Positions 10,580 to 31,087 of a DNA stretch of 64,000 bases are shown here, piece after piece. The DNA is taken from NCBI GenBank assembly GCA_021740645.1, contig JAIOZL010000028.1, positions 1 to 64,000 of the forward strand, in the 5' to 3' direction. The stretch's first letter is position 1; every line of letters starts with the position of its first letter. The notes beneath the pieces were generated by a model. That model saw nothing but the letters and a program-made list of their open reading frames with translations, did not search any database and was not told the origin of the DNA. The position numbers and the translations under genes are program-made. Source of the DNA: Bacteroidales bacterium (lineage in GTDB: Bacteria > Bacteroidota > Bacteroidia > Bacteroidales > JAADJA01).

Positions 10580-10593
10580 TATTTAAGAAAAAA

Positions 10594-11713: not shown

Positions 11714-11836
11714 ATAACGGTCCTCAGCTATGGCATGTAGCGGATTCCCTTGTTTTATGTTCTTTTGTAAAAGTAATTCCAATTTCGTTTTATTGTTAAA
11801 TATTACGCCACTAAATGCTATAGGTGATGTTAGGCA
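11714..11836 (-). repeat. attC-like palindrome B (downstream of HEPN gene)
   Basis: The plus-strand arm GCTATGGCATGTAGCGG (11727-11743) pairs imperfectly with CGCCACTAAATGCTATAGG (11806-11824). The outer boxes are ATAACG (11714-11719) and GTTAGGC (11829-11835). On the minus strand the first box is GCCTAAC, an exact match to the attC R'' consensus RYYYAAC, and it contains the stop codon of the HEPN gene. The far box is GTTATGT, close to GTTRRRY. Confidence 0.55.
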
Positions 11837-12507
11837 CCGATTTTTAATTCATTCATTAGTTTTTCAATATCGAAACTTCTAAATCTCGATTGATTTTTTA
11901 TCGTGTGATCTCCATTAAATCCATAAATATTGTTAAGGTACAACCATCCAATAATTTTAACAAATTCCCAACCTAGATTATATATATCTTGAAGTTCAAT
12001 GATTTTCACACTGATTTCTTTTGAAATTGCTTCATTATGAGCTAATATTTTGTCTCTCCAGATCTTAACTTTTTTTATTTTGGATGAAAGTGAATCAATT
12101 TTCTCTTGATAGTAAATTGCTAACTTTAAATTAAAACAATGTGAATTTTCTTGTTCAAGTAATTTTAATAGGTTCTCTGGAATTCCACATTTATTAAGTT
12201 GTTCAAATACATTTTGTGCTCTTGATGGAATTAAACTTTCATGATTCTTAGTTACAAAATTTAAAGCTGATTCTAAGCACCTAGTTTTATTTCTATCTGA
12301 ATGTTTGTCTAGTACCCTAGCAAGTGATATTATTGATTCATTTTTGGATATCTGTTGTATGTAACTGAAAGTCTTCTTAATAAAGTCTTCTTTGGAGTTA
12401 ATGTTTTTGGATTTTCTAGCTATAAGGTTGTAAACTAACAATGATTGTTCTGATTTGTACAAATCAGAAATTATTCCTTTCTCAATTATTTCTATTAGGT
12501 CTTTCAT
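11830..12507 (-). CDS. AbiU2-like HEPN protein
   Basis: A 225-residue, largely helical cytosolic protein. The stretch KIWRDKILAHNE contains R151 and H157 in an R-x5-H arrangement, the catalytic signature of HEPN RNases, and the RDKxLAH context matches the AbiU2-like branch of HEPN domains. Such proteins are often RNA-cleaving toxins or abortive-infection effectors, which is the likely but unproven role. No antitoxin-like partner is adjacent; each neighbour is separated by a palindrome. The N-terminal 120 residues were not recognised. The stop codon lies inside palindrome B. Confidence 0.65.
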   Translation of the reverse strand: MKDLIEIIEKGIISDLYKSEQSLLVYNLIARKSKNINSKEDFIKKTFSYIQQISKNESIISLARVLDKHSDRNKTRCLESALNFVTKNHESLIPSRAQNVFEQLNKCGIPENLLKLLEQENSHCFNLKLAIYYQEKIDSLSSKIKKVKIWRDKILAHNEAISKEISVKIIELQDIYNLGWEFVKIIGWLYLNNIYGFNGDHTIKNQSRFRSFDIEKLMNELKIGA

Positions 12508-12512
12508 AATTT

Positions 12513-12647
12513 CTGACTAACGTTTTATGGTATGGTGTCGTGCGGGATTACGAGGCGATTTCCTATCAGTTTACACCGACTTTTTTTACGTGCCACTAAC
12601 GTTCGAAAACCTCTGAAACCCGCATGCACTATACCATGTGTTGGCAG
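12513..12647 (-). repeat. attC-like palindrome C (between nuclease and HEPN genes)
   Basis: The plus-strand arm at 12527-12546 (begins ATGGTATGG, ends GTGCGGG) pairs with the arm at 12619-12637 (begins CCCGCATGC, ends ATACCAT), with bulges. Outer boxes are CTGACTAACG (12513-12522) and GTTGGCAG (12640-12647), which are themselves near-complementary. It fills nearly the whole gap between the two genes. On the minus strand it runs from a GCCAAC box to CGTTAGTC. Confidence 0.6.
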
Positions 12648-12654
12648 CTGGTTT

Positions 12655-17169: not shown

Positions 17170-17205
17170 ATTATTTAATTTCGTAGAATTCAAATTTGAT
17201 TTTAA

Positions 17206-17213
17206 CAAATTTA
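17206..17213 (-). promoter_or_regulatory. Bacteroidota -7 box for MEMO-AMMECR1 gene
   Basis: The minus strand reads TAAATTTG, 37 bases upstream of the ATG at 17169; this supports the shorter start. The divergent gene starts only five bases away at 17218. Confidence 0.5.
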
Positions 17214-17217
17214 GTAA

Positions 17218-19356
17218 ATGTCGCTTAAAAACGAAAACAATATTAAGTTTTCCATCTTCCTCGTAGGCTTTACTACGCTTGTTACTCAAATCATCCTCCT
17301 GAGGTATTTCCTGATGATTTTTAGTGGCAACGAACTGGTGATAGGTATTATACTGTCGAACTGGATGCTGATCACTGCATTGGGAGCCTATCTTGGAAAA
17401 AAGATAAATCTCTATCCAAACAAGACCGGTACGCTGGTTTTATCCCATCTTCTGCTGGGAATACTACCCCTGTTAATGGCCCTGGCTATATTTTACCTGC
17501 GAAACATTGTTTTTCCACCAGGCAGGACCATTAATCTTATAGAAATTTATGTAAGCTCCCTGTTTCTTTTATTGCCCTTTTGTTTGGTTTCCGGAGCCTT
17601 ATTCACTTTGTTAAGCTATCACTTATCAGAAATTTTTAAAACAGATAAAATAAACCAGGTATATGCCCTGGAAGCTATTGGTGGCATAGTAGGGGGACTT
17701 CTCTTTAACTTTTTTTTCATTTTTGTTTTTAGCCCTTTCTTTGCCCTGAAGCTTTTATTGGTGCTTAACTTTATTGCAGCGGTGGTCATTTCTTTCGGAC
17801 TGAACAATAATTTAACACCCCGCGTGCTGGGATTACTGGCGATTATCTCTGCAGGGTTTATCCTTACCCTTGACTTAAATGATGCGGCTTTCGAAAAGCT
17901 ATTTATCAATCAGCGGGTAATGGAAGCGGAGGATACGCCCTATGGGAATATTGTGGTGACTGAATCGGGAGGACAGTATAATTTTTTTGAAAACGGGATT
18001 TTCCTGTTCTCGACAGATAATGTAATAGCTAATGAAGAGAATGTTCATTATGCTATGTTGCAACATCCCTCCCCTGAAAATGTATTGTTGATATCCGGCG
18101 GAATATCAGGGACAATAGAAGAAATTTTAAAGTATAATGTCAAATCGGTTGATTACCTTGAGTTGGATCCCGCGTTGGTCAGTCTTGGAAACAAATATTC
18201 GCTTAATACCACCAGCTTTAAGAAAGTTCAGATCGTTAACCAGGATGCCCGTTTATTTTTAAAAACAATTGACAAAACCTATGATGTGGTGCTGATCAAT
18301 CTTCCAGACCCTGCAGGGGCACAAATAAACAGGTATTATACCATTGAATTTTTCGAGGAGCTTAAGCAAAAATGTTCAGGGTCTGCGGTGGTCTCAATTA
18401 GTTTATCATCCTCAGGAAATTACCTGAGTTCGATTGACCTGCAAGTACACCGTGCAATTTTTTCTACTTTAAAATTTATGTTTGAAAATGTGATTATCGT
18501 ACCGGGCATGCGAAATTACTTTATCGCTTCAGATGGCATGGTTACTTCAGATATAGAAAGCCTTACACGGATTAAAAAAATATCTACTGCCTATGTCAAC
18601 CAGTATTACCTGGAAGATGAGCTGATATCGGAAAGGAGGCAAAAAATAGAAAAGGAAATTGGGGATGAAGTGTTGATCAATTATGATTTTTACCCCGTGG
18701 TTTACTACCTTGAAATGAAACAATGGATAAGTAAATTTAATATCAACCTCTTACTCACAGCAGGGATTTTCCTGCTCCTTCTCGTCGTGGTTTTACCACG
18801 ACTAAACATTATCAATATAGGCCTATTCACTACAGGCTTTAGTTCTACTTCAATGGAATTGATCCTCATTTTTGCCTTCCAGGTGGTTTATGGCTACGCC
18901 TATTTTATGGTTGGCGTATTTATTATGATATTTATGATTGGCCTGGCATTGGGTTCGCTGATTGTGTATAAGAGGGTAATTATACATCCAAGAAATTATA
19001 GTTTTATCCAGTATCTCATTGGAATACTTTCGGTATTCACCCCTTTGATATTAGTAAGTATAAAAAACAACCAGCCCCTTGCCATCGTAATTCATATTAT
19101 TTTCATTGTATTGATCATGGCCTTTGGGCTTTTAACCGGATTGCAATTTACACTGGGAACCCGGCTACAAAATTTGTCAGTTACTAAAGTTGCATCCACT
19201 GCGTATAGTTCAGATCTGCTTGGTGCTGCCATTGGAGCATTATTGGTTTCGGCAGTCCTGGTGCCATTTTTTGGATTGATTAAAGTTTGTTTAATTATAG
19301 GAATATTAAATTTTATTGTGGGGTTAGTTATTCTGGTGAGGGTAAGAAACAGATAA
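17218..19356 (+). CDS. Membrane protein with spermidine-synthase-like domain
   Basis: 712 residues. An N-terminal block of about seven hydrophobic segments (residues 10-215), a soluble Rossmann domain (about 225-480) and a C-terminal membrane block (about 500-710). The soluble domain has the spermidine/spermine synthase layout: LLISGGISGTIEEIL, the acidic YLELDP, the NQDARLFL segment, and NLPDPAGAQ. It is a known but uncharacterised fusion class, often called fused MFS/spermidine synthase. The substrate may be a membrane-embedded or periplasmic acceptor. It is 25 bases upstream of the radical SAM gene and divergent from MEMO-AMMECR1, a frequent companion set. Confidence 0.85.
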   Translation: MSLKNENNIKFSIFLVGFTTLVTQIILLRYFLMIFSGNELVIGIILSNWMLITALGAYLGKKINLYPNKTGTLVLSHLLLGILPLLMALAIFYLRNIVFPPGRTINLIEIYVSSLFLLLPFCLVSGALFTLLSYHLSEIFKTDKINQVYALEAIGGIVGGLLFNFFFIFVFSPFFALKLLLVLNFIAAVVISFGLNNNLTPRVLGLLAIISAGFILTLDLNDAAFEKLFINQRVMEAEDTPYGNIVVTESGGQYNFFENGIFLFSTDNVIANEENVHYAMLQHPSPENVLLISGGISGTIEEILKYNVKSVDYLELDPALVSLGNKYSLNTTSFKKVQIVNQDARLFLKTIDKTYDVVLINLPDPAGAQINRYYTIEFFEELKQKCSGSAVVSISLSSSGNYLSSIDLQVHRAIFSTLKFMFENVIIVPGMRNYFIASDGMVTSDIESLTRIKKISTAYVNQYYLEDELISERRQKIEKEIGDEVLINYDFYPVVYYLEMKQWISKFNINLLLTAGIFLLLLVVVLPRLNIINIGLFTTGFSSTSMELILIFAFQVVYGYAYFMVGVFIMIFMIGLALGSLIVYKRVIIHPRNYSFIQYLIGILSVFTPLILVSIKNNQPLAIVIHIIFIVLIMAFGLLTGLQFTLGTRLQNLSVTKVASTAYSSDLLGAAIGALLVSAVLVPFFGLIKVCLIIGILNFIVGLVILVRVRNR

Positions 19357-19381
19357 CGCATATTCATCCTTTTATTATTAC

Positions 19382-20539
19382 ATGAGGCCTGATATCCCAA
19401 AAAGGAAATTCATTAAAAACAGCCTGATGGCAGCAGGAGCAGTCTATTGTGGGATAAATAATAAGTTCGCCGGGGCGGTTGCTTTTCCATCCGGTATTCA
19501 GGCTAATATTCATCCTTCCGGATATACTTCAGATTTAAAATACGAAGCCCGTTTTTATACCCATACACCAAAAGGGATCAAATGCCTGATTTGCCCAAGT
19601 GAGTGCAAGATAAAAGAAGGGGAATCAGGAGAGTGCAGAACAAGGACTAACAGTGATAATATTTTGTTTACCAAAGCCTATGGGAACCCTTGTGCAGTGC
19701 ATGTAGATCCCATCGAAAAAAAACCTTTGTACCATTTTCTTCCTTCCAGTAAAACTTTTTCAATAGCCACTGCCGGATGCAACCTAGCCTGCCTGAATTG
19801 TCAGAATTGGGAAATATCTCAGACCAGTCCGGATAAAACAAGGAATTATGACCTGATGCCGGAACAGGTGGTGGAAGAATGCATTATTAAGGGTTGTAAA
19901 TCAATTGCATATACATACTCCGACCCGGTCGCATTTTATGAATACACCTATGACACAGCAAAAATAGCCAGGTCGAAAGGGATTAAAAATGTACTTGTTT
20001 CTGCGGGCTACATAAACGAAGAACCCCTGAATGAATGGTGCCAATATATTGATGCGGCAAATATTGATCTGAAATCGTTCAGCAATGAAACTTATGAAGC
20101 ACTTAATGGGGCAACCCTTGAACCTGTACTTAAAACATTAAAAATACTCAAATCGAGAGGAGTTTGGCTTGAAATAACCAACCTGGTAATTCCGAACTGG
20201 ACGGATGACATGGGTATAATAAAGGAAATGTGTAAATGGCTTTATGATAACGGGTTTGAAAATACCCCTTTGCATTTTAGCCGGTTTCATCCTTTATACA
20301 AATTAACCGACCTTTATCCCACACCAGTTTCTACTTTGAATATGGCTTACACCCATGCAAAGGAAGCGGGATTAAACTATGTTTACATTGGCAATGTGCC
20401 TGAAATTTCGGCTGCAAACACCCATTGCCCGGAGTGCAATAAGTTGATTGTTGAACGAAAAGGATTTACTGTATTGAGCAAATCAATAGAAAATAATCAT
20501 TGCAAATATTGCAAAGCTGAAATTCAGGGTTCTTGGTAA
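19382..20539 (+). CDS. AmmeMemoRadiSam system radical SAM enzyme, Tat-like N-terminus
   Basis: 385 residues. The radical SAM CxxxCxxC is C133, C137, C140 in GCNLACLNCQNWE. Ahead of it is the family's cysteine block (CLICPSECKIKEGESGECR). The C-terminus adds a CPEC...CKYC pair, zinc-ribbon-like. The first 35 residues look like an export signal: KRKFIK followed by a hydrophobic stretch and AGAVA, close to a Tat signal but with KR in place of RR. Export would be startling for an enzyme needing SAM and reductant, although the MEMO-AMMECR1 partner also has a signal peptide. Reaction unknown. Confidence 0.88.
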   Translation: MRPDIPKRKFIKNSLMAAGAVYCGINNKFAGAVAFPSGIQANIHPSGYTSDLKYEARFYTHTPKGIKCLICPSECKIKEGESGECRTRTNSDNILFTKAYGNPCAVHVDPIEKKPLYHFLPSSKTFSIATAGCNLACLNCQNWEISQTSPDKTRNYDLMPEQVVEECIIKGCKSIAYTYSDPVAFYEYTYDTAKIARSKGIKNVLVSAGYINEEPLNEWCQYIDAANIDLKSFSNETYEALNGATLEPVLKTLKILKSRGVWLEITNLVIPNWTDDMGIIKEMCKWLYDNGFENTPLHFSRFHPLYKLTDLYPTPVSTLNMAYTHAKEAGLNYVYIGNVPEISAANTHCPECNKLIVERKGFTVLSKSIENNHCKYCKAEIQGSW

Positions 20540-20830
20540 AATAATTCAGGTTATTTATAATTTTGAATAAATAACAAAAATAAGTTTGATTTTTTATAAC
20601 CATATTGCAATTAATAGCGTAATAGGAGATATAGAACTATAATAAGATAACGAGGTATTTAAAAGACAGGGTCGAGCAATAATTTCCAAATCGATATGAA
20701 AATATTGGAGCTTTATTAACACTAAAGCAAGGTATTTTTAAGCTAGCCCGGTTAAATTTTACTAAAGTTATAAAATGAAAGAAAAAAATAGGGTAACCTT
20801 TTGTTTAAATAAAGAATAAAGAATCAAATA
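20540..20830. promoter_or_regulatory. Sigma-gene upstream region with GGGTAACC motif
   Basis: A 291-base AT-rich leader without a recognisable gene. GGGTAACCTTTTGT (20791-20804) followed by TAAAGAATA (20810-20818) closely resembles the sequence upstream of the kinase gene (26431-26458), with 18-19 bases between the starts of the two parts. This may be a promoter recognised by the ECF sigma factor encoded next. Confidence 0.45.
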
Positions 20831-21421
20831 GTGCAGGATTTTTCAGCAATTGAAATATTAGAGGGCATAAAAAACAGAGACACTAAAGTTCTTGATTTTA
20901 TTTACGAAAACTTTTTTCATCCGGTAAAGTTATTTGTGATGAAAAATAGTGGAAGTTTGGAAGATGCTCAGGATATTTACCAGGACGCAGTTTTGGTAAT
21001 ATATCAAAAGGTATTGCACGAAAATCTAACACTAACATGTTCTTTTAAAACTTATTTATACTCGGTTTGCAGGCTTCTATGGCTCAAGCAACTTGAAAAA
21101 CGGCGAATAAACAACAGAACGGCAGAAGAGGCAGGATTATTCATCGAACTGGCTGAAGACATTTTCAGCATTAATGAAAAAAATGACCGGTACAAACTGT
21201 ACCAGGATCATTTCAAGAAGCTAAGCTTCAGTTGTCAGAAAGTACTTGAACTTTTTCTTGCTAAAATACCGCTCAAAGAAATTGCCCGGATACTAGGGTT
21301 TAAAAGTGAGCAATACGTTAAAAAGAGAAAGTTTCAATGCAAAGAGAAACTGATACAAAGCATTAAAAGTGATCCGAATTTTTTAGAAAATAGTAAAATA
21401 TACACGATAAAAAACTCTTAA
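20831..21421 (+). CDS. ECF-type RNA polymerase sigma factor
   Basis: 196 residues with a GTG start (no ATG fits the family's beginning). Region 2 is visible in EDAQDIYQDAVLVIYQK and the following tryptophan-containing helix; region 4 in LSFSCQKVLELFLAKIPLKEIARILG, a helix-turn-helix. It would direct RNA polymerase to a small regulon. The stop codon is one base from the start of a membrane protein gene that looks like its anti-sigma factor. Nothing suggests an iron-starvation FecI partner set: no FecR or TonB receptor is present. Confidence 0.9.
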   Translation: MQDFSAIEILEGIKNRDTKVLDFIYENFFHPVKLFVMKNSGSLEDAQDIYQDAVLVIYQKVLHENLTLTCSFKTYLYSVCRLLWLKQLEKRRINNRTAEEAGLFIELAEDIFSINEKNDRYKLYQDHFKKLSFSCQKVLELFLAKIPLKEIARILGFKSEQYVKKRKFQCKEKLIQSIKSDPNFLENSKIYTIKNS

Positions 21422-21422
21422 G

Positions 21423-22160
21423 ATGGACAAGGTAAACAATATTGAAGAATACATTGACGGAAACTTAAGCGGCAAAGAATTGAAAGAATTCGAGCAGGAA
21501 AGGATTAGCGATCCACAATTGTCAGAAGACATTGAATTAAGTATTGAAGTCAATGATGCCCTAAAGGATAAAAACTTTATTGATTTAAGGCAAAAACTCG
21601 ATAATCAGATCCAGACAAGTATGTCTCCGGCTTCTGTATTAAGTATTCAACGGGATTTATTTAAAACCTGGCATCTGGCAGCGGCTTCCTTCGCATTAAT
21701 ACTTGTTGTTGGAGGATTGTGGTATATTTTGTCGAATAAACCTTTTTCAACTGAAAGGCTTGTGACCAAGTATTATAAACCCGCACATCCTATACTGCAG
21801 GTTCGTTCTATTGAAATTAATTCAGATGATGCCTTTAAAGAAGCTTTTAATTTTTATCAGCAAAACGACTACAAAAACGCACTTAAATATTTTAATACGC
21901 TTGAAAATCAAATTACTGCAAAATTCTATAGTGGAATATGCTATATAGAATTGGAGCAATTTGATAAAGCGATTAGCTCTTTTGAATATGTGATTAACGA
22001 CAAAGACAATTTGTTTGTTGAACAGGCTGAATGGTACATGGGGCTCATATTCCTTATGAACAATCATAAAAATGAAGCCGTTGTTCAATTCGAGAACATT
22101 TCAAAAAGTGACAGCTATTATGCCGAACAAGCAAAAGAAATCCTAAAATACCTTAATTAA
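21423..22160 (+). CDS. Membrane anti-sigma-like protein with periplasmic TPRs
   Basis: 245 residues. The N-terminus (1-75) has the IEEYIDGNLSGKELKEFE start shared by many Bacteroidota anti-sigma proteins, then one membrane segment (84-104), then tetratricopeptide-like repeats (about 130-240: FNFYQQNDYKNALKYF, CYIELEQFDKAISSF). The likely topology is sigma binding in the cytosol and TPR sensing in the periplasm. Its place one base after the sigma gene supports this. Family assignment is by architecture, not by a diagnostic motif. Confidence 0.75.
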   Translation: MDKVNNIEEYIDGNLSGKELKEFEQERISDPQLSEDIELSIEVNDALKDKNFIDLRQKLDNQIQTSMSPASVLSIQRDLFKTWHLAAASFALILVVGGLWYILSNKPFSTERLVTKYYKPAHPILQVRSIEINSDDAFKEAFNFYQQNDYKNALKYFNTLENQITAKFYSGICYIELEQFDKAISSFEYVINDKDNLFVEQAEWYMGLIFLMNNHKNEAVVQFENISKSDSYYAEQAKEILKYLN

Positions 22161-22186
22161 GTTTTATGAATAAAAATTCATAATTG

Positions 22187-22216
22187 CAAGCCGGAGAGAT
22201 CCGGCTTGTTTTTTTT
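22187..22216 (+). terminator. Rho-independent terminator of sigma/anti-sigma operon
   Basis: CAAGCCGGA (22187-22195) pairs perfectly with TCCGGCTTG (22200-22208), loop GAGA, followed by eight T. Confidence 0.92.
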
Positions 22217-22488
22217 GCCCTTTCCAAAACGGACTTATTTTTCATTTGGATTCATAAGGAACTAATCATACACCAAATTTGGTTGCTTTATAAATGATGA
22301 TTAGGTAAGAAGATAATCTTTGGTTGGCAATCGCCTGTTCTGTTCATTCGGACAAGGAATATCGGAATATTGTCTCTTTTCAAATGATCATTTTTCCAAT
22401 TAATCCCTCTCAAAGCGATTTGGAAAATTTCAGGAGTATAAACTCACCTCTGGGACCCGATCCTGCTTATTACACTTAAATGTATTGC
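22217..22488. other. Spacer between convergent genes with a small open frame
   Basis: No recognised gene. One plus-strand frame (22324-22479, TTG start, 51 codons) ends in SPLGPDPAYYT just before the convergent TPR-CHAT stop. It contains an AIAC lipobox-like stretch but lacks a proper signal sequence or ATG; an internal ATG at 22384 would give 31 residues. It is kept only as a possibility. Confidence 0.3.
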
Positions 22489-25400
22489 TTATGCTAATTT
22501 TTTTCTTCGCCTTCTAATCCAGAATAAAATGAGGATCACCATAATTAAGATTCCTCCACCAAGGTAATATATAAATGAGACCATGCCCGGAGTAGAAATT
22601 GGACTATTGTTTCCTATCTGAACAAAGGCTGCCCAAAAATAAGGATGCGATTCCAATTGATTCGCGCTGTTTAAATATTCTAGTTTGGCCTGCTGTAAAG
22701 AAACATCCTTGGATAATCCCAGTTTTAAATTGCTATAAAATGCCGAAATGATTTCAGCACTTGAAATATCCTCAATAGCCCACAAAGTCATTACAATACC
22801 GGGAACTCCGGCATATAGAAAACCTCGGGCTAAACTCATTATCCCTTCACCTTTGCTTATTTTGCCAACACCAGTCTTGCAAGCACTAAGCACTGCAAGT
22901 TCCGCATCCAGGTTCAGGTTATATATTTCATAAATATTCAGAAACCCATCTTCCAGGGTATCTCCATTTAAATAAAAAACCAGTTTCGAGTTTAATGGAT
23001 CTTCATCGTTGACCAAAGTATGCATTGCAAAATGAAGGAGCTGACTGTTTTGGCTATTCGCTTTAAAGTTACCTTCAGTGGCCTCTTCCCCGGTAAAAAC
23101 CTCGCCTTTAAATATGTGGCTAATGTCTAATACTTCTTTTTGGCTATATTCTAACGGGTATAATTTACTGCCTATATCTAATGCATTTCTGTTATTTGTA
23201 TTTAAACTATTTGGATTAGCTTGATAATCAGGAGCCATTGCCAGGAGCCCTTTCCCTCTTTTCCTGTTATTTTCCCTGTTGAAAAAGAGTGTCCCTGAAT
23301 AACCATATGATATGGAATGCTTTCTAATTAAATATTCAAGGTTCCGATAGCCTGAGTTCTCGCCCGTTGGCTTTTCAGTTATTAAAGCATCGAAACTGAG
23401 ATACCCAAGAATATCATCAGAAACTATGATCAAATGAGGACTGTGTGCAACAACTTCATTGTTAAGAGAGAGGTTTAAAAACAACTCATAACCTTTATTA
23501 ATAAATTCCAAACTATTTTTTTTAACATTATCTACATCGGGCAGAATATTCATTTTACCAACAAAATTACCCACTTCGGTGTTAAAGTCCGGTCCTACAT
23601 TTTTCTTGATCAGTAAGGAAGTATCGGAAGTAATGATAAATGTATATAAAATTGTGTCGACAAGTTTATATTCGATAAAAGTTTGATCCTTATTCAACTT
23701 TTCAGCTATTGCCTGCCTGTCGATAACATTGAGGTTAAATTTCAGATTATAATATTCCGGATATTCTTGCTCAAGACGTGAAACTAAGCTATCATATTCA
23801 AGCCTTATTTTAAACAGATTTTTACGAATTCGACCTACTTTATTTGAATCTAAAGGGATTTGCTGGCTTTCTTCTAAAATCAGATTTTCATACTGTGTAA
23901 TATTTTGTTTTAGATTTTTTTCAAGTGCTTTCACAGAATCAGGAATATTTCCTACCTGTAATGCCTCCATTTTTCTTATTGTTGATAAAAGAACCGCAGC
24001 TTTACTTTTTTCCGCATATTCAAAGCACTTATTGTAATATTCTTCCTTATTTGTAATTTGGTAAAGCTCGGATGAAATCAGAATGGCCAGGTCATATATG
24101 CTACTTGCTTCTTCAGTAATCCTGAGCTTTGTTTTATCCATCCCCATCGAAGATTTAATACTTTCAAATAATTCAATAGCCAATCCAGCAGTTTGCAAAC
24201 TAATTTTTAAGTTGTCAACATCTTGTACATCCTTGTACTTTTTGTATATGGCATCTGCTTTTAAGTACAAAATAGTAGATACATTAAAATCCTTTTCCAG
24301 CACAGCCAGCTTTGGGTTATGACTGATATCTTTATCATTAAAATCATCGATAATAGAAATAAGGGCTTGCTGAGAATAGGATATTGCATTGGTATAGTCT
24401 CCCTCTCTGTTATAATGTTTGCTTATATTAGTTAATGCTGAAGCTACATCCCTGTTTTTATCTCCAAAAGTTGATTTTAAAATCTTATACGCTTGTTCAA
24501 AGTATTCAAAAGACTTATTGTAATTTTCATGTTTATTATAAAATACACCAAATCGCAATTGCGTATAGGCAAGTTCAAACATTTTTTCAGAGCCCAAATT
24601 TTTGGCGATCTCAATTGCATTTTGGAAATATTGCTCTGCAGCTTCCATATCCTCCAGATCATCATAACACTCCGCTAAACTACGAACACACTTCAGATTA
24701 TATACTGGATCTTTATTAACCCCACGGCTTTTAATTAAGTGTTCAATGGCCTCTTCCGGTTTTCCAAGGTTTCTGTATAAAATACCTAAATTCAATCGTA
24801 TAGTTGAAAGTAAAGTAGGATCATTATCTAATTGATTTTTATATAGTTCAAAAGCTAACAATTGGTAATTTAAAGCTTCGTCATAATTTCGGAGTAAGGT
24901 CAGCAATGCACCTTTATTTATATATATCGGGGCCAATCCCTCGTAGTTATGCCCAAAAATTCGAAGGTACATTTCTTCGGCTTTGTTCATATAATTAAGT
25001 GCTGCTTCCGGTTCACCCATATACAATAAAAACAATCCAAAATTTGTAAGACCATTGGCAAGTTTGGGATCATTCTCCGATAATATCTCTTCTTTTATTT
25101 TTAAGGATTCAAAAAAGTAATACCTCGCGCTATCAAATTCACTTTGATTATAAAAGATTATTCCTGTATTCTGATAGATCGAGGCCATATTAACCTGGGA
25201 AGGATTATCCAGGGTTTTTTCGATATGTAATGATTTTTGATAACACGACAATGCCTCCTTATAATTTCCCTTAAAAAGATTGAGGTTTCCCTTTAGTTTA
25301 TAAACCAATACAAGTAAGCTATCGTAATTATTATCGCAAAGATTAATGGTTACATTTGAAAAATACGTAGCACTATCAACATTTCGATGATTGTAATAAT

Positions 25401-25773
25401 ATAATCCATTGAGGTAATAAATCTCACTGAGAATGTTATTATCTGTCAATTCATATTCATTAAATGTACTTAAAGCAATTTGATTATAATATTTTAAAGA
25501 ATCAATATTACCCTTCATATAATTTGCATACGAAGCATAGATCAAAGATTTTGTTAATACATTCCATTCCTTGGCATTAGCAGATTTATTAATTTTACTC
25601 CAAATAGTTATCAGAGCCGAATCATAGTTTGATTTTGTAAAATCTGCTTTAATCGACTTAAAGCTTCGTAATGAATCTATTTCCTGCGAGTAAAGGTTTG
25701 ATGGTATGGAAAAAATAATAAAGCATAGGAATACCCATAATGCAGCAGCCGTATACTTTAACATAATTCTCAT
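22489..25773 (-). CDS. Exported TPR-CHAT protein (caspase-like protease candidate)
   Basis: 1094 residues from the ATG at 25773 (25764 also possible). A signal peptide (ends SNLYSQ) is followed by about ten tetratricopeptide repeats (residues 45-480), a helical linker and a CHAT domain (about 790-1055). The CHAT catalytic pair is visible: H918 in HFAMH and C965 in LSACKTG, 47 residues apart, followed by GEGIMSLARGFLYAG. One membrane segment near the C-terminus is followed by RRRRKK, predicting a periplasmic enzyme anchored by its tail. CHAT domains are caspase-clan peptidases. Convergent with an ECF sigma/anti-sigma pair. Substrate unknown. Confidence 0.88.
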   Translation of the reverse strand: MRIMLKYTAAALWVFLCFIIFSIPSNLYSQEIDSLRSFKSIKADFTKSNYDSALITIWSKINKSANAKEWNVLTKSLIYASYANYMKGNIDSLKYYNQIALSTFNEYELTDNNILSEIYYLNGLYYYNHRNVDSATYFSNVTINLCDNNYDSLLVLVYKLKGNLNLFKGNYKEALSCYQKSLHIEKTLDNPSQVNMASIYQNTGIIFYNQSEFDSARYYFFESLKIKEEILSENDPKLANGLTNFGLFLLYMGEPEAALNYMNKAEEMYLRIFGHNYEGLAPIYINKGALLTLLRNYDEALNYQLLAFELYKNQLDNDPTLLSTIRLNLGILYRNLGKPEEAIEHLIKSRGVNKDPVYNLKCVRSLAECYDDLEDMEAAEQYFQNAIEIAKNLGSEKMFELAYTQLRFGVFYNKHENYNKSFEYFEQAYKILKSTFGDKNRDVASALTNISKHYNREGDYTNAISYSQQALISIIDDFNDKDISHNPKLAVLEKDFNVSTILYLKADAIYKKYKDVQDVDNLKISLQTAGLAIELFESIKSSMGMDKTKLRITEEASSIYDLAILISSELYQITNKEEYYNKCFEYAEKSKAAVLLSTIRKMEALQVGNIPDSVKALEKNLKQNITQYENLILEESQQIPLDSNKVGRIRKNLFKIRLEYDSLVSRLEQEYPEYYNLKFNLNVIDRQAIAEKLNKDQTFIEYKLVDTILYTFIITSDTSLLIKKNVGPDFNTEVGNFVGKMNILPDVDNVKKNSLEFINKGYELFLNLSLNNEVVAHSPHLIIVSDDILGYLSFDALITEKPTGENSGYRNLEYLIRKHSISYGYSGTLFFNRENNRKRGKGLLAMAPDYQANPNSLNTNNRNALDIGSKLYPLEYSQKEVLDISHIFKGEVFTGEEATEGNFKANSQNSQLLHFAMHTLVNDEDPLNSKLVFYLNGDTLEDGFLNIYEIYNLNLDAELAVLSACKTGVGKISKGEGIMSLARGFLYAGVPGIVMTLWAIEDISSAEIISAFYSNLKLGLSKDVSLQQAKLEYLNSANQLESHPYFWAAFVQIGNNSPISTPGMVSFIYYLGGGILIMVILILFWIRRRRKKLA

Positions 25774-25860
25774 TTTATAAATATTATTACCTATTATTAA
25801 TATAAGTGTAGGCAATTTACTTATACCTAAAATAGATTAAATAGTTATAATAATTATTAA

Positions 25861-25908
25861 TTTTTTTATTGAAAAATGAAAAAAGGAAAGCCATTGAGGC
25901 TTTCCTTT
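25861..25908 (-). terminator. Terminator of small peptide gene
   Basis: An 11-bp perfect stem: AAAGGAAAGCC (25882-25892) with GGCTTTCCTTT (25898-25908), loop ATTGA. On the minus strand TTTTCATTTTT follows. It lies between the peptide gene and the TPR-CHAT gene, so the peptide can be expressed alone. Confidence 0.85.
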
Positions 25909-25989
25909 AAGAATTTTCGAATAATTGATGTTCTGGATTAATAAAACACTCAGAAAATCAATCCATCTGCTGCACTATTAAAAGGGATA

Positions 25990-26154
25990 TTAATCCGGAA
26001 TAAAAATTCCTTGAACATCGCTTGTGTGTCCACCACCACCAACTGTTCCTTCAGACTGGTCAACACTAGTGTTGTCATCTTGAGAAATAAGCTGGGAGGA
26101 GAAAAATAGCGCAAACGCTACCACTAAAATGGTAATTAAGCTTCTCATTTTCAT
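25990..26154 (-). CDS. Small secreted peptide precursor
   Basis: 54 residues from the ATG at 26154 (26148 is an alternative). Residues 1-23 form a clear signal peptide (MRSLITILVVAFALFFSSQ). The predicted mature part is about 30 residues, acidic, with a GGGG run and the end HTSDVQGIFIPD. It has its own well-formed promoter and terminator, which argues that it is real. No homologue was recognised. Possible roles: signal, ligand for the neighbouring TPR proteins, or precursor of a modified peptide. Confidence 0.65.
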   Translation of the reverse strand: MKMRSLITILVVAFALFFSSQLISQDDNTSVDQSEGTVGGGGHTSDVQGIFIPD

Positions 26155-26179
26155 AAAACTCTTTATTAATAATTCAATA

Positions 26180-26209
26180 CAAAAATAAAAATATTTTTCA
26201 AAAATCAAA
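26180..26209 (-). promoter_or_regulatory. Promoter of small peptide gene
   Basis: On the minus strand, TTTG (26209-26206), 18-base spacer, TATTTTTG (26187-26180): both halves of the Bacteroidota housekeeping promoter at standard spacing, 26 bases from the ATG at 26154. Confidence 0.65.
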
Positions 26210-26430
26210 CTTTTTTTTCATTTTGGGAAAGATTCCTTATTTGGAAATATCAATTCATAAACCTTAATCCTTCAATATAATCCCCATAGATATTGAAATA
26301 GCAAGCAGTTTAAAACCCTCTGACAGAAGGCCTGAGTATCCAAAACTGCCTTTTTTGTCTATAATAATTTTCCCAAAAAAAATTAAGCTCTGAAATAATT
26401 TAGAAAAAATATAAATTATTGAATGTTTTG

Positions 26431-26458
26431 GGGTAACCTTTTTGTCGTTAAAGGAATA
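26431..26458 (+). promoter_or_regulatory. GGGTAACC motif upstream of kinase gene
   Basis: GGGTAACCTTTTTGT (26431-26445) then TAAAGGAATA (from 26449), nearly the same as upstream of the ECF sigma gene. It lies 46 bases before the kinase ATG and may be an ECF promoter. The rest of 26210-26503 shows nothing else. Confidence 0.45.
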
Positions 26459-26503
26459 TATAAATAATGCAATAAAAGGTCTGCGCGGGATAATATAACT
26501 TGT

Positions 26504-27295
26504 ATGAATAAAAACAACTTCAATAAAGATTCTGATATAGAAATTCAAAAAATGAAAGAGGAGTTAGCCAGGAAAGCAGAACAACTGAATTCTTTGCAAT
26601 CATCATTCCTTTCTAATATTTCTCATGAGATCAGAACTCCGATGAATGTTATTGTAGGTTTCTCAAATTTACTATCCGACAACTCTTATACACTGGAACA
26701 ACGCGACTTTTTTATTGAGGAAATAAATAAAAACAGCCGGGAACTTCTTAGAATTATTGACAATATTATTATCACCTCAAAAATTGACACGGAAAATATT
26801 AAGCCCGAAATGGATCATTTTAGTATTGATCTTATCATGAATGAACTTCATTCTCAGGTAAAAAAATTTATCTCCGATTTTTCTTTTAATGATATAAAAA
26901 TCATATTATCAAGACATAAAGAACACAAGAACCTCATAATATTTACGGATAAGGATAAACTTAAAAGGGCTCTGCTTAATTTAATTGAAAATGCAATTAA
27001 ATTTACCATCAATGGTACCGTAGAATATGGATACAAAGTTGAAGATAAAAAGGTGGAATTCTATGTAAATGACACAGGAATAGGCATTGAGAGAAAAAAT
27101 CTTAAGAAGGTTCTTGAGAAGTTTTATAAAATAGATGAGAGCAATGAAAGCGGTAAAAAGGGACTTGGTGTAGGCCTTTCTGTTTCAGATAAATTGATTA
27201 AAATCCTTGGCGGTAAACTAAGCATGAAATCTACATTGGGTAAGGGATCAACGTTCTCTTTTAAATTACCTGTCATGGTGGAAAAATCAGTTTAA
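26504..27295 (+). CDS. Soluble histidine kinase (HisKA-HATPase)
   Basis: 263 residues without membrane segments or PAS/GAF sensor. A short coiled coil leads into the HisKA box with H41 in SNISHEIRTPMN, then the HATPase domain with NLIENAIKFT (N box), DTGIGI (G1) and GLGVGLSVS (G2). It is therefore a minimal catalytic kinase, which would need a separate sensor. No response regulator is adjacent. A GGGTAACC motif shared with the ECF sigma gene precedes it, hinting at common control with the sigma/CHAT module. Confidence 0.9.
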   Translation: MNKNNFNKDSDIEIQKMKEELARKAEQLNSLQSSFLSNISHEIRTPMNVIVGFSNLLSDNSYTLEQRDFFIEEINKNSRELLRIIDNIIITSKIDTENIKPEMDHFSIDLIMNELHSQVKKFISDFSFNDIKIILSRHKEHKNLIIFTDKDKLKRALLNLIENAIKFTINGTVEYGYKVEDKKVEFYVNDTGIGIERKNLKKVLEKFYKIDESNESGKKGLGVGLSVSDKLIKILGGKLSMKSTLGKGSTFSFKLPVMVEKSV

Positions 27296-27427
27296 AATAT
27301 ACCTCCTACAAGCAATTCCATTTTCCCTGATTATAATCACTCCAATTCTAACACTTGAAATAAACAAGGGAATTCGTTAAAAAATTAAAAGCCTTGCAAA
27401 TGCTTATTTACAAGGCCTTAAATGAGG

Positions 27428-27502
27428 TGGGGCGTACTGGATTCGAACCAGTGACCTCTTGCCTGTCAAGCAAGCGCTCTAAACCAACTGAGCTAACGTC
27501 CC
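27428..27502 (-). tRNA. tRNA-Val (GAC)
   Basis: 75 bases. D-arm GCTC/GAGC, anticodon stem CTTGC/GCAAG with loop TTGACAG giving anticodon GAC, T-arm ACTGG/CCAGT, discriminator A. CCA is not encoded. The acceptor stem GGGACGT/ACGCCCC has one A-C mismatch at the fourth pair. It lies alone between two plus-strand genes. Confidence 0.88.
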
Positions 27503-27626
27503 TTATTACAGCGCTCTATGCCTCCCGGCTCCTATCAGCATGAGAAAATACCCCAAGAATTTAATTAATATAAATGAACTGCAAATTTATAAAATACTTT
27601 CAATTTTCTACTGTCCGGATGTTTAT

Positions 27627-27634
27627 TAATTTTG
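27627..27634 (+). promoter_or_regulatory. Bacteroidota -7 box for DPP IV-like gene
   Basis: TAATTTTG matches TAnnTTTG 15 bases before the ATG at 27649, and it lies inside a longer possible reading frame, which favours the shorter start. Confidence 0.5.
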
Positions 27635-27648
27635 GAAAAAATTTAACC

Positions 27649-29838
27649 ATGAGAAATACCGTCTATTATATCCTCGCATTTTCAATGCTTTTGTTCCAGG
27701 GAGCACAAGCCCAAATCCACTCAAAATCCATATCACTCGATGATATTTTTAAAAAAGGAACCTTCAATATGGCCCGGGTCAAAACGATGAAATCCATGAA
27801 TGATGGCGAAACATTTTGCCTGTTGAACGGAGATAGTCTGAATTTATATGCTTATAAAACAGGAAAGTATATTTCAACAATAGTCGAGGCACAACAACTT
27901 ATCCCAGAAGAAGACTCATTGCCGATTTCAATGAGCAATTATTCATTTAGCTCTGATGAGAAAAGGATATTGTTTGCCACCAATACTGAAATGATCTATC
28001 GCCGGTCCAGCAAGTCTAAATATTACATATTTAATATTGAAACAAACAAGTTAGTCCCTCTTTCTGAAAACGGCAAGCAACAACTAGCAGATTTTTCCCC
28101 TGATGGATATCAAATAGCTTTTGTTAGGGGGAATAATATTTTTATCAAGGATCTTAATGCCAACACCGAAACTCAAATTACTTTTAATGGCGAATTGAAC
28201 AAAATTATTAATGGAGCTCCTGACTGGGTTTACGAGGAAGAATTTGGTTTTTCAAAAGGGTTCTATTGGTCACCGGATAGTAAAAAAATTGCTTTTTACC
28301 GTTTTGATGAATCCTACGTCAAAGAATTTAATATGATGATTTGGGGCAAGCTATACCCGGAATTAAGTTCATTCAAATACCCAAAGGCGGGTGAGGACAA
28401 TTCATTGGTTAGCATTCATGTGTATAACCTGGAAGATGGAAAAACAATCAAAATGGACATCGGTGATGAACCTGATATTTATATTCCCAGAATAAAATGG
28501 ACAAAAGATCCAGATATCCTTTCGATACAATGGATGAACAGGCTACAAAATGAATTAAAGATATTACTAACAAATTTCCTTTCAGGGGAATCCCAAACTA
28601 TTTACCATGAAAAAAATAAATATTATATTGACATTTCAGATAATCTGACTTTCCTGAGTGATAAAGAACATTTCATTTTTTCTAATGAAGAGAATGGCTT
28701 TCATCATTTGTACCTTTATGATATGCTTGGCAACCTCGAAAATCAAATTACTTCAGGCAATTTCGATGTCCAGGAATTTATTGGGATTGATGAGGAAAAG
28801 AACCTGGTGTATTACACATCATCAGAATCATCCCCTTTAAACCGCGAATTATACACGACGAATACTGACGGCTCTGGGAAAAAACTGCTTTCAGAAAAAC
28901 TAGGGAATAATTCCGTGCAGTTTAGTAAAAATTATAAATATTATTTGAATTCGTTCTCCAACTCCAATACTCCCCCACATACTGCTTTGTATTCTCAGAA
29001 GGGTAAACAGCTTCGAGTAATTGAGAATAATGACAAACTCAAACAAATAACAGTGGATTATAATTTTCAGAAAAGGGAATTTTTCACTTTTACTACCAAT
29101 GAAAATATCGAATTAAATGCATGGATGATTAAACCACCTGGTTTTGACCCAACAAAAAAGTACCCGGTATTAATGTATGTATATGGTGGTCCTGGTTCAC
29201 AAACAGTAAGGAACAGCTGGGGAAGAAATGATGCGTGGTACCAGATGCTGGCACAAAAAGGATTGATCATTGTTTCAGTAGATAACCGGGGTACAGGAGC
29301 CAGAGGTGAAGAATTTAAAAAAATGACTTACATGCAATTGGGGAAGTACGAAACAATTGATCAAATTGAGGCAGCGAAATACCTTGGAAGTCTTGATTAT
29401 GTTGATAAAGACAGGATTGGAATATGGGGTTGGAGCTATGGCGGCTATATGTCGGCTTCCTGTCTGTTTAAAGGGGCAGAATTCTTTTCAATGGCCATAG
29501 CTGTGGCTCCGGTAACTAATTGGCGCTATTACGACAATATTTATACAGAACGTTTTATGCGCAAACCTATAGAAAACCCAGAGGGGTATGATGAAAACAG
29601 TCCCATTAACCATGTTGATAAACTCGCCGGGAAGTTATTATTGATCCATGGCACGGCAGACGATAATGTGCATTATCAGAACTCTATCGATTTAATTTCT
29701 GCACTTGTGGGTGCCAATAAACAATTTGATATGCAATTTTATCCTAATAGTAATCATGGTATTTATACCGGCAAAAATACCAGATATCACCTGTATAGCA
29801 AAATGACAGACTTCATCGAAGAAAATTTATTGAAATAA
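27649..29838 (+). CDS. Dipeptidyl peptidase IV-like serine peptidase (S9)
   Basis: 730 residues. Signal peptide 1-22 (ends AQAQ). An N-terminal eight-bladed beta-propeller is followed by an alpha/beta-hydrolase domain. The nucleophile is S596 in GWSYGGY, the acid D671/D672 in GTADDNVH and the base H703 in NHGIY. The propeller loop VYEEEFGF provides the double Glu that binds the free N-terminus in DPP IV, so it should remove X-Pro or X-Ala dipeptides from peptides in the periplasm. The ATG at 27649 gives the signal peptide; 27574 is an upstream in-frame ATG. Confidence 0.93.
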   Translation: MRNTVYYILAFSMLLFQGAQAQIHSKSISLDDIFKKGTFNMARVKTMKSMNDGETFCLLNGDSLNLYAYKTGKYISTIVEAQQLIPEEDSLPISMSNYSFSSDEKRILFATNTEMIYRRSSKSKYYIFNIETNKLVPLSENGKQQLADFSPDGYQIAFVRGNNIFIKDLNANTETQITFNGELNKIINGAPDWVYEEEFGFSKGFYWSPDSKKIAFYRFDESYVKEFNMMIWGKLYPELSSFKYPKAGEDNSLVSIHVYNLEDGKTIKMDIGDEPDIYIPRIKWTKDPDILSIQWMNRLQNELKILLTNFLSGESQTIYHEKNKYYIDISDNLTFLSDKEHFIFSNEENGFHHLYLYDMLGNLENQITSGNFDVQEFIGIDEEKNLVYYTSSESSPLNRELYTTNTDGSGKKLLSEKLGNNSVQFSKNYKYYLNSFSNSNTPPHTALYSQKGKQLRVIENNDKLKQITVDYNFQKREFFTFTTNENIELNAWMIKPPGFDPTKKYPVLMYVYGGPGSQTVRNSWGRNDAWYQMLAQKGLIIVSVDNRGTGARGEEFKKMTYMQLGKYETIDQIEAAKYLGSLDYVDKDRIGIWGWSYGGYMSASCLFKGAEFFSMAIAVAPVTNWRYYDNIYTERFMRKPIENPEGYDENSPINHVDKLAGKLLLIHGTADDNVHYQNSIDLISALVGANKQFDMQFYPNSNHGIYTGKNTRYHLYSKMTDFIEENLLK

Positions 29839-29850
29839 TTGATGATTAAT

Positions 29851-29880
29851 TTTGAATATTTGATTTTTTATGTATTTTTG
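29851..29880 (+). promoter_or_regulatory. Promoter of rpsU
   Basis: TTTG (29851-29854), 18-base spacer, TATTTTTG (29873-29880): a full Bacteroidota promoter with a leader of about 33 bases. Confidence 0.75.
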
Positions 29881-29918
29881 CACCCCATTTTAAACAACTA
29901 ATATAAAAAGGAGCAACA

Positions 29919-30113
29919 ATGATAATCGTACCTGTAAAAGAGGGAGAAAGTATCGACAGGGCCTTAAAAAAGTACAAAAGGAAATTTGAGAAAACTGGTG
30001 TAGTAAAAGAACTTCGTGAGAGGCAAAAATACACCAAACCTTCGATCATTAAGCGTCAGGAAAAACTTAAAGCAATTTACGTACAACAACTGAGGCAGCA
30101 GGAAGAAGGTTAA
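29919..30113 (+). CDS. rpsU: 30S ribosomal protein S21
   Basis: 64 residues, highly basic, beginning MIIVPVKEGESIDRALKKYK, typical S21. It is preceded by AAGGAG, one of the few good Shine-Dalgarno sequences in the window. It stands ahead of a tyrosine recombinase and an HPF-like factor, a common gene order in Bacteroidota. Confidence 0.96.
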   Translation: MIIVPVKEGESIDRALKKYKRKFEKTGVVKELRERQKYTKPSIIKRQEKLKAIYVQQLRQQEEG

Positions 30114-30171
30114 TCTAACATTCTTTTGATTTTTTAACAATTTAAAGATCTTTATTCTGAATAATTTATGT

Positions 30172-30179
30172 TATTTTTG
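30172..30179 (+). promoter_or_regulatory. Bacteroidota -7 box for tyrosine recombinase gene
   Basis: TATTTTTG matches TAnnTTTG, 20 bases before the ATG at 30200. Confidence 0.5.
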
Positions 30180-30199
30180 AGTAAAGATTTTTCTTTTAC

Positions 30200-31087
30200 A
30201 TGCATATAGATAATTTCATTCGACATCTTCACGCCGAAAAACGCTATTCAAAGCATACTATTATCGCCTATCATAACGATTTAAAACAATTCAATAAATT
30301 TTTAAAAGAGTCTTATAATATTTGTTCATTTGTTGAGGTTACTCACCAAATAGTCAGGTCATGGATATTTGAGTTAAGTTCTCATTCAATTTCTGCAAAT
30401 TCTATTAATAGAAAGCTTTCAACCTTGAAAACATTCTTTGGCTATTTGCGTAAAAACAGCATAATAATTGAGAATCCATTGAGTAAAATTTCATCCCCAA
30501 AAAAGAACAAAAGGCTTCCCGAATTTGTTATTCAGGAACAGATGGATGAGTTATTTATAAATATTGATAATGATAAATCTTTTACAGGAATTCGTAACAA
30601 GCTTATTATTCAAATCTTTTACTTTACAGGTATTCGTCTAAGTGAAATGACCCATCTACGTGATCATGACATTGATATTTCCAGGCAGCAATTAAAAGTT
30701 CTTGGTAAGCGAAACAAAGAACGATTAATCCCTTTTGGAAAAACTTTAGCCGAAACAATTGAAGAATATTTATTAGTTCGCAAAAGGGAAATTGAAAAGA
30801 AGGAAGAAGGAGATTTTCTATTAATTACTAAAAATGGAAAAAAAATTTATAACAAACTTATTTATCGTGTAGTAAATTCGTATCTTAGTAAAGTTTCAAC
30901 ATTACAGAAAACTAGTCCGCATATATTAAGACATACTTTTGCAACTCATATGCTAAATAACGGCGCTGAACTCAATGCGATAAAAGAAATACTTGGACAC
31001 GCAAACCTTGCAGCCACGCAGGTTTATACTCATAATACCATCGACAAGCTTAAAACAATATATAACCAGGCTCATCCCAGGGCCTAA
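30200..31087 (+). CDS. Tyrosine recombinase XerC-type
   Basis: A 295-residue site-specific recombinase of Xer type. The N-terminal SAM-like core-binding domain begins HIDNFIRHLHAEKRYSKHTI. The catalytic residues are visible: Arg in TGIRLSEM, His-x-x-Arg in HILRHTFATHML, His in LGHANLAATQVY with the following Tyr in VYTH. Its place in a housekeeping cluster (rpsU, recombinase, HPF) and normal length favour chromosome-dimer resolution over a mobile-element integrase. XerC versus XerD cannot be settled by eye, and it is too far away to be tied to the cassette array. Confidence 0.92.
   Translation: MHIDNFIRHLHAEKRYSKHTIIAYHNDLKQFNKFLKESYNICSFVEVTHQIVRSWIFELSSHSISANSINRKLSTLKTFFGYLRKNSIIIENPLSKISSPKKNKRLPEFVIQEQMDELFINIDNDKSFTGIRNKLIIQIFYFTGIRLSEMTHLRDHDIDISRQQLKVLGKRNKERLIPFGKTLAETIEEYLLVRKREIEKKEEGDFLLITKNGKKIYNKLIYRVVNSYLSKVSTLQKTSPHILRHTFATHMLNNGAELNAIKEILGHANLAATQVYTHNTIDKLKTIYNQAHPRA

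Follow-up and report, generated by a model that had tools for sequence, protein, structure and literature searches.

Genes at the locus

The window analyzed here is a 64,000-nucleotide stretch of a Bacteroidales genome (assembly GCA_021740645.1, contig JAIOZL010000028.1, positions 1 to 64,000). It carries a gene for an extracytoplasmic function (ECF) sigma factor, a gene for a candidate membrane anti-sigma factor with tetratricopeptide repeats (TPRs), and a gene for a predicted exported TPR-CHAT protein. These three genes, referred to below as the triad, almost certainly form a functional unit, and we put at about 50% the probability that the CHAT protein acts as a site-1-type protease of the anti-sigma factor. 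A first-pass annotation had described an ECF sigma factor, an adjoining one-span TPR protein, a convergent TPR-CHAT protein with H918 and C965, a secreted peptide, and a soluble kinase, and this description was accurate; the start that it gave, 20540, is intergenic, and the genes of the module begin at 20831.

The sigma factor gene (20831..21421, + strand) has a GTG start and encodes 196 amino acids. Its assignment follows from profile matches and from its conserved pairing with the anti-sigma gene; the product scores 47.6 bits against the NCBIfam model sigma70-ECF TIGR02937 (cutoff, 42.9) and 23.2 bits against Pfam Sigma70_r2, slightly below the cutoff of 24. The ATG of the candidate anti-sigma gene (21423..22160, + strand; 245 amino acids, called from hydropathy, a structural model, and TPR matches) lies one base past the sigma stop codon, and a terminator-like hairpin stands 3′ of this gene at 22186..22209 (+ strand). 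The TPR-CHAT gene (22489..25773, − strand; 1094 amino acids from ATG) is convergent to this pair. On the same strand as the CHAT gene is an open reading frame (ORF) for a predicted exported peptide of 54 amino acids, ending in GHTSDVQGIFIPD (25990..26154). Because a second terminator-like hairpin (25882..25908, − strand) separates the peptide and CHAT genes, the two are probably transcribed apart; hairpins of this kind number 8 across the region, against 4.4 expected. A soluble histidine kinase of 263 amino acids with HisKA and HATPase domains and no hydrophobic segment is encoded at 26504..27295 (+ strand), and a tRNA-Val gene follows it.

Conservation of the triad

Exactly two Pfam CHAT matches are present in this genome. 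The second is on another contig, where its gene is convergent with a sigma gene and a TPR anti-sigma gene; this second complete module (L048, positions 4769-10720, G000:C25) has a gene for an exported protein of ~400 amino acids in the place of the peptide. Of 16 genomes of the same genus that were searched, 14 had a clear CHAT orthologue, and the sigma, anti-sigma, and CHAT genes were on one contig in 12 of these 14, with the contig cut in the other two. Conservation within the genus says little by itself, since the flanking genes for a radical SAM (rSAM) enzyme, a spermidine-synthase-like protein, DPP4, and XerC are also syntenic there. In other families of the order, the triad was found without these genus neighbors (L045, L049, L050, L053, and L056).

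To survey the order, an anti-sigma profile (A2) was searched in 295 genomes, 123 of which had a match. Forty loci were opened, in 40 genomes outside profile building that were taken from the upper part of the listing and not at random. All three genes lay within ~9 kb in 27/40 loci, with the CHAT domain confirmed in all 27. Two more loci had only the TPR part of the CHAT gene, at a contig end, and in all 11 that remained, several of them on short contigs, a CHAT gene was present elsewhere in the genome. At cutoffs of E ≤ 1e-10 for the anti-sigma factor and a strict E ≤ 1e-100 for CHAT, 101 genomes had both, 22 had the anti-sigma factor alone, 18 had CHAT alone, and 154 had neither (Fisher p ∼1e-37, not corrected for relatedness and with ∼9 of the 295 genomes having contributed rows to the profiles). 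When eight of the 22 genomes scored as having only the anti-sigma factor were opened, five (G194, G046, G047, G055, and G125) proved to have a divergent or contig-cut CHAT gene beside it, the domain being confirmed; the counts were kept as they were. The triad was also present in 32 of 80 named CHAT loci, including those of Aquimarina and of the cultivated Fulvivirga marina (L098), Kordia zhangzhouensis (L130), and Aureibaculum flavum (L151). These 80 were the best of 564 candidates, nearly all from Bacteroidota and many on short contigs; the named loci nearest to that of the window come from metagenome-assembled genomes of Bacteroidales.

Thus, of the five-gene module that had been proposed, the sigma factor, anti-sigma factor, and TPR-CHAT protein belong together by co-occurrence and linkage. 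The kinase is not core: other families have triads that lack it, and it was not beside the triad in most of the other-family loci of the family comparison, the 40 opened loci of the order not having been searched for it. In four loci (L101, positions 2632-14036; L121; L142; and L146), two or three TPR-CHAT genes surround one sigma/anti-sigma pair, which suggests that several CHAT proteins may feed one switch.

The TPR-CHAT protein as a candidate peptidase

The CHAT domain (PF12770) is matched with an E value of 5.6e-55. Strongly hydrophobic segments occur only at the two ends of the protein (windows starting at residues 1 to 11 and 1062 to 1071), and the C-terminal span is followed by RRRRKK. 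Judged by hydropathy and the structural model, on which both calls rest, the protein looks exported by an N-terminal signal sequence and held by a C-terminal membrane anchor. An AlphaFold2 model built from 44 sequences reached a mean predicted local distance difference test (pLDDT) score of 86. When this model was compared with the Protein Data Bank (PDB) by Foldseek, human separase took ranks 1 to 4, DdvA of Myxococcus xanthus took rank 5, and TPR-CHAT proteins of the type III-E CRISPR (clustered regularly interspaced short palindromic repeats) system Craspase appeared from rank 7, with low global TM-scores (0.2 to 0.3 for separase). The protein therefore combines a CHAT domain containing a His/Cys pair with a predicted caspase-clan fold, as expected of a CHAT peptidase, and its export, anchoring, and fold are in line with the first-pass annotation. 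That annotation had named three findings that would speak against it, namely, lack of co-occurrence, a cytosolic CHAT protein, and absence of a peptidase fold; each was looked for, and none was obtained.

Four residues, H914, H918, C965, and D1002, do not vary in the 44-row alignment. A wider set of 118 aligned CHAT proteins retains H918, C965, and D1002 in 117 members, and the one remaining sequence is truncated by a contig end. In the alignment to the CHAT-domain profile, H918 corresponds to His and C965 to Cys in both DdvA and the Craspase CHAT protein. H914 is not matched by His in either and was rejected as the catalytic His in favor of H918. H918 (codon at 23020..23022, − strand) and C965 (22879..22881, − strand) are thus the likely catalytic pair. 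D1002 (22768..22770, − strand) is a candidate acid of the S1 pocket; it is aligned to Asp in DdvA, and its counterpart in the Craspase CHAT protein is not acidic. Separase cleaves after Arg and holds that Arg with an Asp downstream of its Cys. The loop at residues 966 to 975, just past C965, is one of three stretches of the model with a pLDDT below 50 and would suit an activation loop.

A conserved arginine in the anti-sigma linker

The candidate anti-sigma factor has one hydrophobic segment (19-residue windows starting at residues 79 to 87). Its model (pLDDT, 89) consists of an N-terminal helical part, a long helix at residues 79 to 104, a loop at residues 118 to 135, and TPR helices at residues 136 to 244. 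The protein therefore has the features of a membrane anti-sigma factor: a gene beside the sigma gene, an N-terminal helical domain, and one span. In two relatives (L059 and L063), the corresponding N-terminal part contains the motif HxxxCxxC, which we take to be the zinc anti-sigma signature. From the gene order, the topology, and this motif in some relatives, we infer that the TPR protein inhibits the sigma factor. The HxxxCxxC proteins of these two loci adjoin a TPR-CHAT gene and, in the sigma position, a longer gene of 274 to 278 amino acids (L059, positions 4944-6611; L063, positions 12260-13959); this arrangement is perhaps a sister system.

One highly conserved position of the anti-sigma factor lies in the linker between the membrane and the TPRs. 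Arg occupies the column of R128 (codon at 21804..21806, + strand) in 93% of 120 anti-sigma sequences, making it the third most conserved residue of the protein. Within columns 124 to 133, Arg followed by Ser, Gly, Asn, or Thr was found in 108/120 sequences, whereas in 211 control windows of equal length, the same pattern was found in at most 27/120 (median, 5); it was retained in 92 of 104 representatives below 60% identity. The linker is predicted to be disordered, with a pLDDT below 50 at residues 128 to 130. The first-pass annotation had supposed that the CHAT enzyme could cleave the outer domain of the anti-sigma factor, and its periplasmic linker does contain a candidate site: by conservation and predicted disorder, R128 is the best candidate for a cut by CHAT. 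Both the protease and the target linker are predicted to face the periplasm, and the site is predicted to be accessible, as expected of site-1 cleavage. One genome (G277; L287-L288) has several TPR anti-sigma genes and no CHAT match at E 1e-100, and one of these proteins has Gln in place of R128.

A promoter motif shared by the sigma gene and its putative targets

A bipartite motif, GGGTWACCTTT-N12-GNATWWA, was found at −40/−41 of the sigma gene in 13/13 loci of the genus, where counts were scored with a slightly looser pattern. The same motif precedes the kinase gene in 8/8 genus loci and the gene for the ~400-amino-acid exported protein in 2/2; it precedes none of 11 CHAT, 7 DPP4, 8 rSAM, or 8 peptide genes there, one of the last having only 56 bases upstream. 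In this genome, exact matches are limited to two sites, both at the module. One, at 20791..20821 (+ strand), reads GGGTAACCTTT-N12-GAATAAA and is the candidate sigma-dependent promoter of the sigma operon, and the other, at 26431..26461 (+ strand), is that of the kinase gene. Exact matches alone were used because a scan allowing two mismatches returned 25 matches in the genome versus 23 in a reversed control. Under that looser scan, the sigma gene of the second module of this genome has a related string, GGGTTACTTTTT-N11-GGATTTTT, which as a two-mismatch match is weak by itself, and by eye a similar string lies upstream of the exported gene there.

The strict form of the motif was present in 10/10 genus genomes scanned and never in the reversed control. 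Seven of these ten have no site away from the module. The one site in G015 precedes a tRNA-like stretch and DPP4, at the place expected of the kinase promoter, with no kinase gene in between. G003 and G014 have 10 further sites, 8 of which precede genes that look exported by eye (a lipoprotein or type IX secretion system [T9SS] tail), some starting up to ∼440 bases downstream of the site; the other 2 are at contig ends. In these two genomes (L271-L280), sigma-type promoters thus stand before a larger number of exported proteins; their spacers resemble one another, which gives the impression that copies of the promoter have spread.

A weight matrix built from 12 motif sites was then applied to other genomes of the order. 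The motif was found before 25/37 sigma genes and 11/16 exported partner genes, compared with 0/41 anti-sigma genes and 7/334 other (control) genes, and at the threshold used it preceded 0/30 CHAT genes, three of which were without upstream sequence. CHAT was rejected as a sigma target, given its absence of motifs in both the genus and the order. The sigma factor appears to drive itself, the kinase in this genome, and exported proteins in relatives. Autoregulation, which is typical though not universal among ECF sigma factors, is suggested by the motif before the sigma gene itself, and the kinase, which shares that motif, is probably a sigma target in this genus. Since no sigma-type motif precedes the CHAT gene, the CHAT protein would be made independently of the sigma factor, which fits an upstream role for it.

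The peptide and the exported partner proteins

Homologues of the 54-residue peptide occupy the same place in nine loci of the genus; all end in VP[DE], and two are nearly identical. The ratio of nonsynonymous to synonymous polymorphism (pN/pS) in nine sequences was 0.50 for the N-terminal part, 0.91 for the middle, and 0.39 for the C-terminal part, values that come from few codons with saturated synonymous sites and with L013 left out. Constraint therefore falls on the signal peptide and on the last 12 codons, not between them, a pattern that speaks for a real gene.

In two loci of the genus (L041 and L042), in the second module of this genome, and in many other families, the ~400-amino-acid exported protein replaces the peptide. 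The longer protein shares the peptide's motif, GDVNGxYxP, and within the genus, the signal peptides of the two are similar (MKKRS...). All seven of the ~400-amino-acid proteins scanned had a CarboxypepD_reg/SdrD-like match, and a T9SS tail was above the cutoff in 6/7; dockerin-type matches were present in 4/7 (one above the cutoff) and a cohesin match in 1/7. From 29 exported-protein candidates, three (L063, L080, and L083) were dropped as other large proteins; a GD[VL]-type motif was seen by eye in the middle of 23 of the other 26, or 22 of 25 distinct ones, given that L074 and L243 are the same. From the shared signal peptide and motif, we infer that the peptide is a stripped-down exported protein that has kept only the signal peptide and the GDVNGxYxP end. 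In L041 (positions 4932-6170), dockerin-type and cohesin matches occur in one T9SS-exported chain, which could permit head-to-tail assembly on the cell surface.

The motif is not private to the system. GDVNGSYLP is also found in a large protein of the T9SS type encoded at another locus of this genome (L184), which weakens the idea that the motif is specific to CHAT loci. Across the 80 named CHAT loci (1.15 Mb), it was found in exported proteins beside CHAT at L072 (twice) and L082 (once), and there were three further chance-like matches. The first-pass annotation had proposed the peptide as trigger or substrate. No Arg is present near its conserved end, and a role as ligand, decoy, or status reporter seems likelier for it than one as a substrate for cleavage.

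Proposed mechanism and alternative explanations

The locus may encode an envelope-to-gene signaling switch of the regulated-proteolysis type. The one-span anti-sigma factor would keep the ECF sigma factor inactive at the inner membrane, while the TPR-CHAT protein, made independently of the sigma factor, would be tethered by its C-terminal anchor on the periplasmic side. Upon a signal, which might come from the envelope or a surface protein and be sensed by the TPR solenoid, the CHAT domain would use H918 and C965 to cut the anti-sigma factor after R128 in the exposed linker. By analogy with RseA/DegS, the remaining stub would then be degraded and the sigma factor released. The freed sigma factor would activate its own operon along with a few other genes, a step supported by the promoter motif; this small regulon would comprise the neighboring histidine kinase here and, among relatives, exported proteins that include the T9SS-exported one encoded beside CHAT. 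A more tentative extension, against which we would place the odds, closes this pathway into a CRISPR-independent reading of the cell's own surface: the exported GDVNGxYxP protein, here the 54-residue peptide, would be what the periplasmic TPR-CHAT protein senses before it cuts the anti-sigma factor after R128, and the freed sigma factor would raise its own production and, in relatives, that of the exported partner as well.

Several observations weigh against cleavage of the anti-sigma factor by CHAT or narrow its consequences. The best match of the anti-sigma factor to a library model, NCBIfam NF052375, is not significant (E, 0.032), and the anti-sigma domain is a candidate on the grounds of its position and shape. 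Conservation of R128 might reflect a role in binding instead of a cut. Four of the 120 anti-sigma sequences have no basic residue (Arg or Lys) near position 128, and three of these four (L119, L137, and L283) stand beside a CHAT protein that keeps H918, C965, and D1002. Co-variation of R128 with D1002 was sought and not seen in the few informative cases, which lowers our confidence that CHAT cuts the anti-sigma factor. Lastly, in the 32 named triads, the motif precedes only 4/34 sigma genes; a phylum-wide promoter motif was accordingly rejected, and the claim of a regulon is limited to this part of Bacteroidota.

In one alternative, CHAT is a nonproteolytic sensor or scaffold, a two-chain equivalent of DdvA in which the TPR solenoid binds the TPRs of the anti-sigma factor and alters its grip on the sigma factor, with R128 as a contact. 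Both partners are TPR proteins that are predicted to be periplasmic, the two functions are present in cis in DdvA, and D1002 is retained where R128 is lost. A pure scaffold would have no need of H918 and C965, yet these are invariant in 44/44 diverse relatives and in all but the truncated member of the wider set, and R128 lies in a linker predicted to be disordered; we regard this explanation as doubtful. We consider it unlikely that CHAT instead processes the co-located exported protein or peptide, for maturation or quality control, with the sigma factor tuning the supply of this substrate and the anti-sigma factor controlled in some other way. An exported gene does lie directly upstream of CHAT on the same strand in many loci, and sigma-type promoters precede 11 of 16 such genes; however, none of the eight scored peptide promoters of the genus has the sigma motif, the conserved end of the peptide lacks Arg, and 13 of 27 triads have no recognized exported partner, a few of these being at contig ends.

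The likeness to type III-E Craspase raises the idea of a defense or cell death device, in which CHAT would be the executioner and the sigma factor the alarm, as Csx29, a TPR-CHAT protease, acts on the inhibitor of an ECF-like sigma factor in the portion of the account consulted (PMC10028731). This is very improbable for the present locus: of the four proteins tested against PADLOC, the only matches were to a TPR model and, for the kinase, to one candidate-defense model; no clustered repeats lie nearby (19000-31000); a search of 50,697 phage records with CHAT gave no match; the CHAT protein appears to be exported; and the genes that bear the motif are the kinase and exported proteins. The thought that the genes are merely neighbors in a conserved gene order, in favor of which the flanking rSAM, DPP4, and XerC genes are likewise syntenic in the genus, is contradicted for the triad and hardly tenable, because the triad is intact in other families without those neighbors, in an unlinked second copy in this genome, and in other Bacteroidota groups, and because genomes with unlinked copies still carry both; it is possible only for the kinase outside the genus.

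Relation to known systems

The closest sequence relative of known structure is DdvA (PDB 8rot and 8rw5), the best PDB sequence match of the CHAT profile (E, 2e-6). DdvS and DdvA of M. xanthus are an ECF sigma factor and its transmembrane anti-sigma factor; DdvS is active once DdvA is inactivated, and the signal that inactivates DdvA was unknown in 2015, according to the available part of that report (PMC4374960). As judged from PDB titles and sequence matches, DdvA resembles the present system in tying a transmembrane anti-sigma factor to a CHAT domain, and it differs in holding both in one 991-amino-acid chain (8rot), whereas here they are separate chains of 245 and 1094 amino acids, with a secreted partner in addition. 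As a natural fusion, DdvA supports by analogy a partnership between anti-sigma factor and CHAT protein.

Craspase (Csx29, Csx30, and CASP-sigma) is similar in that a TPR-CHAT protein relieves the inhibition of a sigma factor, and the folds match. Csx29 is not known to have an export signal, whereas the protein described here has a hydrophobic N terminus and a C-terminal span. Csx29 works with Cas7-11 and a target RNA, while here both CHAT and its proposed target are predicted to be periplasmic, and the counterpart of D1002 in Craspase is not acidic. A CRISPR array and Cas7-11, which accompany Csx29, were not found: no direct repeats of at least 22 bases within 400 bases are present at 19000-31000, in agreement with the first-pass annotation, and no Cas protein is among the seven proteins scanned at 17218-27292. 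According to PMC10028731, Csx29 is an endopeptidase with a His/Cys pair that cleaves the inhibitor of an ECF-like sigma factor, the sigma motifs occur in its own locus, and in D. ishimotonii the site at which it cleaves Csx30 lies between residues 427 and 429.

RseA/DegS also pairs a one-span anti-sigma factor that has a periplasmic domain with a membrane-anchored periplasmic protease as the site-1 candidate; DegS is a PDZ serine protease, in contrast to the caspase-clan CHAT enzyme with a large TPR part proposed here. Separase, the top Foldseek match, likewise joins a helical-repeat solenoid to a caspase-clan protease, but it is eukaryotic, belongs to an unrelated pathway, and matches with the low global scores given above. 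PorXY-SigP of Porphyromonas is also a Bacteroidota ECF sigma factor linked to the T9SS and a two-component system, although no CHAT protein figures in the portion of its account consulted (PMC7712824). In the open-access text retrieved, CHAT was found together with ECF or anti-sigma factors only in CRISPR papers (PMC10028731 and PMC11417357); the accessible part of PMC11854122 describes CHAT proteins in a type VI secretion system region and makes no mention of sigma factors. The two papers that a search on TPR anti-sigma factors of Bacteroidetes brought up had no bearing on them. By its predicted topology, the present system is neither DdvA nor Craspase, having two chains, a periplasmic location, and an exported partner.

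In the available part of a survey (PMC7406223), a class I anti-sigma factor is nearby for 6% of Bacteroidetes ECF sigma factors versus 32% over all phyla, leaving open how the rest are controlled. The triad is a widespread candidate answer for ECF control in Bacteroidota, in which the residue that may be cut, the likely catalytic residues, and the promoter motif can each be named. If cleavage occurs as proposed, the triad would correspond, in two chains and across the phylum, to DdvA and Craspase and would supply a missing route of ECF control where recognized class I anti-sigma factors are rare. More broadly, it would suggest that CHAT proteins recurrently act on inhibitors of sigma factors: in Craspase, in cis in DdvA, and here in trans in the periplasm.

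Neighboring genes

AmmeMemoRadiSam genes adjoin the module at 15655-20539 and are syntenic in much of the genus. They include the AmmeMemoRadiSam radical SAM enzyme and a minus-strand ORF of 544 amino acids that, by eye, resembles a Memo-AMMECR1 fusion, with a spermidine-synthase-like membrane protein encoded between the two.

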